Shown in pieces: positions 1-558 of a DNA stretch of 33,608 nt. This DNA is from Pelomonas aquatica (GTDB lineage Bacteria; Pseudomonadota; Gammaproteobacteria; Burkholderiales; Burkholderiaceae_C): positions 1 to 33,608 of the forward strand of contig NZ_JAPPUW010000035.1 in NCBI RefSeq assembly GCF_026712205.1. Direction: 5' to 3'. Under the pieces are notes generated by a model. That model was not told where the DNA came from and searched no databases. It saw only the letters and a list, made by a program, of their open reading frames with translations. The translations under genes were made by a program, and so were the position numbers. Every line of letters starts with the position of its first letter. Position 1 is the first letter of the stretch.

Positions 1-118
1 ATCCGGCTTCCTTCAGACCCACAGTCACCCGCGGAACCCTTGCCATTGGCTAACCATTCCCCTTGCCGGGCTGATAGAGGACTCTCACCTCCGAGTAGGT
101 GCACCCTGCCGGGCGCAC
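1..118 (-). mobile_element. group II intron, 5' end (partial, runs off the left edge)
   Basis: Read on the minus strand, position 118 begins with GTGCG, the classical group II intron 5' end. The first 22 bases fold as a 9-bp stem (98-106 with 111-119, one G-U pair, tetraloop). Next come the domain I signatures GGAGGTGAGAGTCC (about 93-80), GGCAAGGGG, AGCCAATGGCAAGGG and CTGAAGGAAGCCGG, all typical of bacterial group II introns. The intron-encoded reverse transcriptase/maturase, domains V-VI and the 3' end would lie beyond base 1. The short open frame from 46 to 1 is therefore RNA structure, not a gene. The subclass cannot be set from 118 bases. The element starts three bases beyond the T-run of the rplQ terminator. 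Confidence 0.8.
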
Positions 119-120
119 CG

Positions 121-145
121 CAAAAAAGCCCGCTCAAGGCGGGCT
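121..145 (-). terminator. intrinsic terminator after rplQ
   Basis: On the minus strand AGCCCGC (145-139) pairs perfectly with GCGGGCT (133-127) around a 5-base loop, followed by a run of T (127-122). It lies 24 bases past the rplQ stop and ends the rpsD-rpoA-rplQ unit. Confidence 0.9.
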
Positions 146-168: not shown

Positions 169-558
169 TTATTCGGCGGCAACGCCTTCGGTCTCACCTT
201 CGGGGCGGTCCACCAGTTCGACGAAGGCCATGGGCGCGTTGTCGCCGACGCGGAAGCCCATCTTCAGGATGCGGGTGTAGCCGCCCGGGCGGTTCGCGAA
301 ACGCGGGCCCAGCTCGTTGAAGAGCTTGCCGACGATGTCGCGGTCGCGCAGGCGGTCGAAAGCCAGGCGGCGGTTGGCCAGCGTGGGTTCCTTGGCGAGC
401 GTGATCAGGGGCTCGACGACACGACGCAGTTCCTTGGCCTTGGGGACCGTGGTCTTGATGGCTTCGTGCTGCAGCAGCGAAACGCACATATTGCGCAGCA
501 TGGCAGCGCGGTGGGCGCTGGTGCGGTTGAGTTTGCGGAGGCCGTTACGGTGACGCAT
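169..558 (-). CDS. rplQ: 50S ribosomal protein L17
   Basis: Protein of 129 residues starting [17 protein letters not shown], the conserved L17 N-terminus, followed by the basic core with [18 protein letters not shown] and the conserved GGYTRILK segment near residue 92. L17 binds 23S rRNA at the polypeptide exit side of the large subunit. The length matches the family; the last ten residues are an acidic variable tail. It is the final gene of the rpsD-rpoA-rplQ block. It is separated from rpoA by 97 bases that contain a hairpin, and an intrinsic terminator follows. Confidence 0.97.

Follow-up and report, generated by a model that had tools for sequence, protein, structure and literature searches.

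The window, by which we mean the whole 33,608-nt stretch of DNA that was analysed (G000:C29:1-33608, G000 being its own genome), starts inside a group IIC intron located immediately past the transcription terminator of the ribosomal protein gene rplQ. This feature is almost certainly where one copy of an intron begins (5' end) that has recently spread to about nine places in its own genome. On the minus strand the order is rplQ, a GC-rich hairpin, T6, GCG and then GTGCGCCCGGCAGGG, which begins at base 118 and extends to the left as far as base 1. Bases 118-1 (GTGCGCCCGGCAGGGTGCACC...GGTCTGAAGGAAGCCGGAT) are the first 118 nt of the intron, and three bases separate them from the T-run of the rplQ terminator. 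Since base 1 is the end of contig C29, the sequence to its left is unreadable. The features of this region are as follows:

Bases 1..118, minus strand: beginning of the group IIC intron (its 5' GTGCG... at 118) and of domain I, cut by the contig end; based on eight identical 112-nt 5' ends, 89-90% identity to the relatives L045 and L043, and a sub-threshold Rfam match.
Bases 119..121, minus strand: GCG, the last three bases of the 5' exon, corresponding to positions -1 to -3 of the putative IBS1; based on the sequence and on EBS1-loop pairing in relatives.
Bases 122..127, minus strand: T-run of the rplQ terminator; based on the sequence.
Bases 128..145, minus strand: hairpin of the rplQ intrinsic terminator; based on the sequence and on a positive detector result with an 8-bp stem.
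Bases 169..558, minus strand: rplQ (ribosomal protein L17), donor of the terminator used; based on the open frame and a Pfam Ribosomal_L17 match of 137.6 bits.

A search of the own genome with the first 400 bases of the window revealed seven other contig ends sharing the intron start. The first 112 nt of the intron are letter-for-letter equal at all eight ends (one distinct sequence among eight), and a detector of hairpins followed by T-tracts was positive at 8/8 of these 5' junctions, as against a background of 1.07% (488 of 45,600 positions drawn at random from the survey loci). The feature therefore exceeds chance, and the first-pass annotation, which had placed a group II intron 5' end at base 118 of the minus strand, three bases past the rplQ terminator, described the letters correctly. 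Domain V was identified at nine other contig ends of the same genome (RF00029, 44.8 bits each). The 117 nt that close the intron (with CCTACTCGAT at the end) do not differ between these 3' ends (9/9), and the first base of the 3' exon is T in eight and G in one. The own domain V (GAACCGCCGG...CCGGTGGT) is predicted to fold with a C-G-C triad around a G-U pair; a CGC rather than an AGC triad marks group IIC.

At each of the 17 ends (eight 5', nine 3') the contig breaks off after 112-120 nt of intron. Searches of the own assembly for RVT_1 and TIGR04416 found neither, and a DNA search with the intron interior matched only the 3' 115-118 nt. Identity among the eight 5' ends and among the nine 3' ends points to a family that is young and numbers about nine nearly identical members; as far as these searches can tell, their interior is absent from the assembly. 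The own copy count is at least nine, 40 of 159 first-look candidates having been scored in the 5' search and 40 of 124 in the interior DNA search. The family accounts for the contig breaks at base 1 of the window and at 16 further ends of the assembly. A bias towards the lagging-strand template has been published for such introns. GC skew, taken as a stand-in for the strand of replication, was computed at the 17 contig ends, and the flanks on either side of the rplQ intron (L263, L274) were opposite in sign. A diverged domain I stretch of this intron type, 79% identical, detector-positive and lying within a contig (C24:17157-17299, L016), is a trace of an older insertion.

Three of the copies were put together from their halves. 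For the copy behind rplQ, the 3' end, which the first-pass annotation would have sought within about 3 kb to the left of base 1, was located on another contig, at the end of C17 (L021). The C17 flank after the intron end is 85.6% identical over 471 nt to the sequence behind rplQ in G308, a genome of the same genus (L184), only from the 30th base of the flank on. Joined across the intron, the rplQ site of the own genome reads TTTTTTGCG^TCCGTCG. Resembling uninterrupted rplQ sites are TTTTTTGCGTCCCTG (L191), TTTTTTTCGTCCGTG (L185) and TTTTTTTCGTCCGTA (L187), and other relatives differ more. For the second copy, an lpd-like oxidoreductase gene (C4, L015) was paired with an AFG1-ATPase (zapE-like) gene (C55, L026); the own site reads TTTTTTTG^TGATGACC and is uninterrupted as TTTTTTTGCGATGACC in L285 and L286. 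The third copy pairs C25, which carries an outer-membrane-barrel-like gene (Pfam match just under the cut-off), with C7, which carries a tryptophan halogenase gene. C25 was joined to C7 because the C7 flank matches locus L301 of G302 (82.9% over 469 nt), where the C25 gene has a relative next to it.

Two of the sites were read base by base, and neither shows bases duplicated or lost. In the same genus, 19 genomes besides the own one were searched and an rplQ match was obtained in 18; no recognisable intron was seen behind rplQ in 15 of these 18, by eye in the stretches inspected. The comparison of rplQ downstream regions across relatives yielded empty sites in same-genus genomes, and the clean empty sites at two loci lend indirect support to the putative mobility of the intron.

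The class of the intron was determined from full-length relatives. A search with the 118 nt covered 299 genomes of the family, themselves part of a larger set, and matched nine of them, the own one included. Two relatives, 89-90% identical to the window stretch, could be read with both ends and a reverse transcriptase (RT), namely L043 (1910 nt) and L045 (1889 nt). With Rfam, the window gave at gathering score a tRNA only and no group II intron match; group-II-D1D4-3 matched bases 34-1 with 22.5 bits (E 0.013), which is below the gathering score of 32 and truncated by the contig end. L043 and L045 exceed the gathering score for both the domain I and the domain V models. Pfam identified RVT_1 and GIIM only in their proteins, which are without an endonuclease domain, and TIGR04416 scored 418 (L043) and 405 bits (L045). 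The best solved relative of the RT is GsI-IIC (450 and 458 bits), followed by 7uim (368 bits), which we take to be a IIC protein; LtrA scored 128 and 135 bits, and 6me0, presumably a IIB protein, 137 and 130 bits (L043 and L045, respectively). An RT-maturase lacking an endonuclease domain and nearest to GsI-IIC (450/458 versus 128-137 bits) indicates group IIC (class C). Judged by the proteins of these two relatives, the window intron is a group IIC intron, and this is settled within the tests made, that is, RT scores against GsI-IIC, 7uim, LtrA and 6me0.

The motif CTGAAGGAAGCCGG in domain I had been taken earlier as a reason to doubt class C. It lies within the first 140 nt of 4/43 aligned introns, L043 and L045 included, and the shorter motif CTGAAGGAAGC was found in 19/43. 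Since L043 and L045 carry CTGAAGGAAGCCGG together with GsI-IIC-like proteins, such an intron is a IIC intron with the ordinary class C target rule, and the doubt falls away. A different group II RT occurs in the same genus (L234, G238:C35; L235, G312:C111); its HNH domain and its closeness to 6me0 were established from L235.

Three other explanations were weighed against a recently spread group IIC intron. Instead of an intron, the stretch could be a conserved leader or an RNA element of the ordinary kind behind rplQ, as might be thought of a short intergenic stretch behind a gene of which just 118 nt are visible. The same sequence, however, stands behind eight different terminators, and the 15 of 18 same-genus relatives described above lack any intron discernible by eye at this place. 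A gene leader or conserved downstream element is ruled out by these empty sites together with the seven further copies, and the probability left to this reading is practically nil. A group IIB or other non-IIC intron with independently evolved terminator targeting is very improbable. It would draw on the domain I motif, which had not been tied to class C, but the RTs of L043 and L045 score more than 300 bits higher with GsI-IIC than with 6me0 or LtrA, the control RT with an HNH domain (L235) shows the opposite pattern (563 bits to 6me0, 127 to GsI-IIC), and the domain V triad is CGC. Group IIB was rejected on these grounds.

The own copies could also belong to a IIC derivative without an ORF or with an internal deletion, whose movement in trans relied on an RT that this genome lacks or has lost. 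That neither an RT gene nor interior DNA was found in the assembly fits such a derivative. Against it, all 17 ends stop 112-120 nt in at contig ends, as a collapsed long repeat would, and both full-length relatives with both ends read carry an RT. We regard this derivative as unlikely, though it is the most serious of the three; in the preferred reading of a recently spread IIC intron, the own copies would themselves probably encode an RT.

The first-pass annotation had also stated that class C introns habitually insert just after intrinsic terminators, and a wide survey bears this out. GTDB genomes were scanned exactly with a degenerate 5' end pattern, which gave at least 115 stretches; one duplicate and L093 (flank too short) were left out and 113 junctions were examined. 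A terminator precedes 107 of the 113 by the hairpin and T-tract detector (among the matches listed, and with the kinship of the introns uncorrected), which is to be compared with the 1.07% of random positions. The location of the window intron directly behind the rplQ terminator is explained by this target rule. The detector missed L076, L095, L122, L125, L156 and L157, in most of which, by eye, the hairpin has a bulge or an extended loop, or the T-run is poor. In L125, L157 and L076 the hairpin is accompanied by a poor or absent T-run (by eye), which would fit a hairpin that outweighs the T-run.

Class C introns are expected to have a short IBS1 that pairs with EBS1, and to lack an IBS2. EBS1-IBS1 pairing between intron and target was analyzed in 43 aligned introns, comprising 38 of 114 survey junctions, L043, L045 and three introns of a second lineage (type-2, see below). 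Using a stricter motif, the EBS1 loop (domain I, after GGC) was found in 29 of the 43, and the remaining 14 were unused. Loop and target pair in 26, 29, 27, 10 and 17 of these 29 relatives at positions -1, -2, -3, -4 and -5, respectively, so that pairing is weak at -4 (10/29) and -5 (17/29). The mean was 3.76 EBS1-IBS1 pairs of 5 as compared to 2.86 when shuffled, and 0 of 10,000 target shuffles reached as high a value (kinship uncorrected). By base complementarity the putative EBS1 loop of domain I pairs in relatives with each intron's own target; the corresponding EBS1 of the own copies is predicted to lie in the missing interior.

Insertion of class C (IIC) introns after intrinsic terminators, guided by a short IBS1 and the hairpin, is described in passages of four articles (PMC4424553, PMC3522654, PMC8919778, PMC3898094). 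PMC8919778 states that introns with IEP types g6, U1 and U2, which are neighbours of C, likewise insert after terminators, and a section of PMC7161350 describes a mobility assay using a terminator-like stem-loop followed by IBS1. The target rule observed here is thus the one already in the literature. No concept is changed; the window holds an element of a known kind at the usual kind of landing place. What the data add is a case in which the class C target rule can be followed cleanly by comparison, with own targets, empty sites in relatives and an EBS1 loop that tracks the target in two lineages. By this rule, the intron RNA would be spliced out and, bound to the RT-maturase, would recognise the terminator hairpin as DNA. 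The EBS1 loop would pair with the target bases that directly follow hairpin and T-run on the 3' side, and the RNA would then reverse-splice at the paired site with the assistance of the protein, before being copied into DNA.

The host of GsI-IIC is presumably Geobacillus stearothermophilus. GsI-IIC differs from the present introns in host group and sequence, and the likeness rests on the RT protein, which (PDB 6ar1) aligned over 413-415 residues with the RTs of L043 and L045. In parts of PMC8919778 and PMC4424553, introns of its class insert after intrinsic terminators, as here. A second IIC lineage within the genus, type-2 (GTGCGCCCAGC..., L228, L230), shares the RVT_1 and GIIM protein, the terminator target and, in G302, the rplQ site; GsI-IIC is also the best solved relative of the L228 RT (417 bits). 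The lineage differs in its domain I sequence, and its EBS1 letters match other target letters. A terminator stands at 24/24 junctions of type-2 introns (GTGCGC[CT]CAGC), all from five genomes, and 3 of 27 type-2 loci are without a recognisable 5' end. Three type-2 introns pair at 5/5 positions with three different targets, for example AACGA-TCGTT and CATGA-TCATG. Di.ze.I1 and So.gl.I1, class C introns of Enterobacteriales, are likened here by description, being characterised in PMC3522654 as low in copy number in each genome, with a short IBS1/IBS3 and a location past Rho-independent terminators.

Three of the 18 same-genus genomes with an rplQ match have another intron or a remnant right behind the rplQ terminator: a type-2 intron in G302 (L179), a type-2 remnant in G310 (L183) and a type-1 remnant in G300 (L192). 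Counted by lineage, the independent hits are at least two, as the G300 remnant may share the insertion seen in the window and the G310 remnant that of G302. That distinct IIC lineages land repeatedly at the rplQ terminator in this genus is a tentative idea which we consider rather doubtful. If true, some terminators, for example those of heavily used operons, would be struck far more often by distinct IIC lineages. In the wide survey, rplQ was the upstream neighbour of 0/113 introns (among the matches listed), and a literature search found nothing joining a group II intron with rplQ.

Insertion behind terminators had been supposed to let the element sit beside the most expressed genes without harm. 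As a preference, the first part found no support: only one of 113 upstream regions (among the matches listed) contained a relative of any of the 26 window genes, namely a redoxin-family gene, and one of eight own copies is behind rplQ. A preference for ribosomal operons was accordingly rejected. Single cases next to genes of the highly expressed type are rplQ in the window and rpoC upstream of the L043 intron, L043 being outside the survey. The latter intron (L043:942-2851, G144) lies behind rpoC and before a gene resembling rpsG, which we take to be rpsG-like from its letters.

Absence of harm could not be upheld in general either. Another own copy is situated 2 nt before the putative start codon of the AFG1-ATPase gene; the terminator rule is therefore no guarantee of a harmless site. 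This gene may depend on read-through or may have start signals of its own. In relatives, too, the start of the AFG1-ATPase (zapE-like) gene is found a few bases past the T-run of the terminator of the lpd-like gene.
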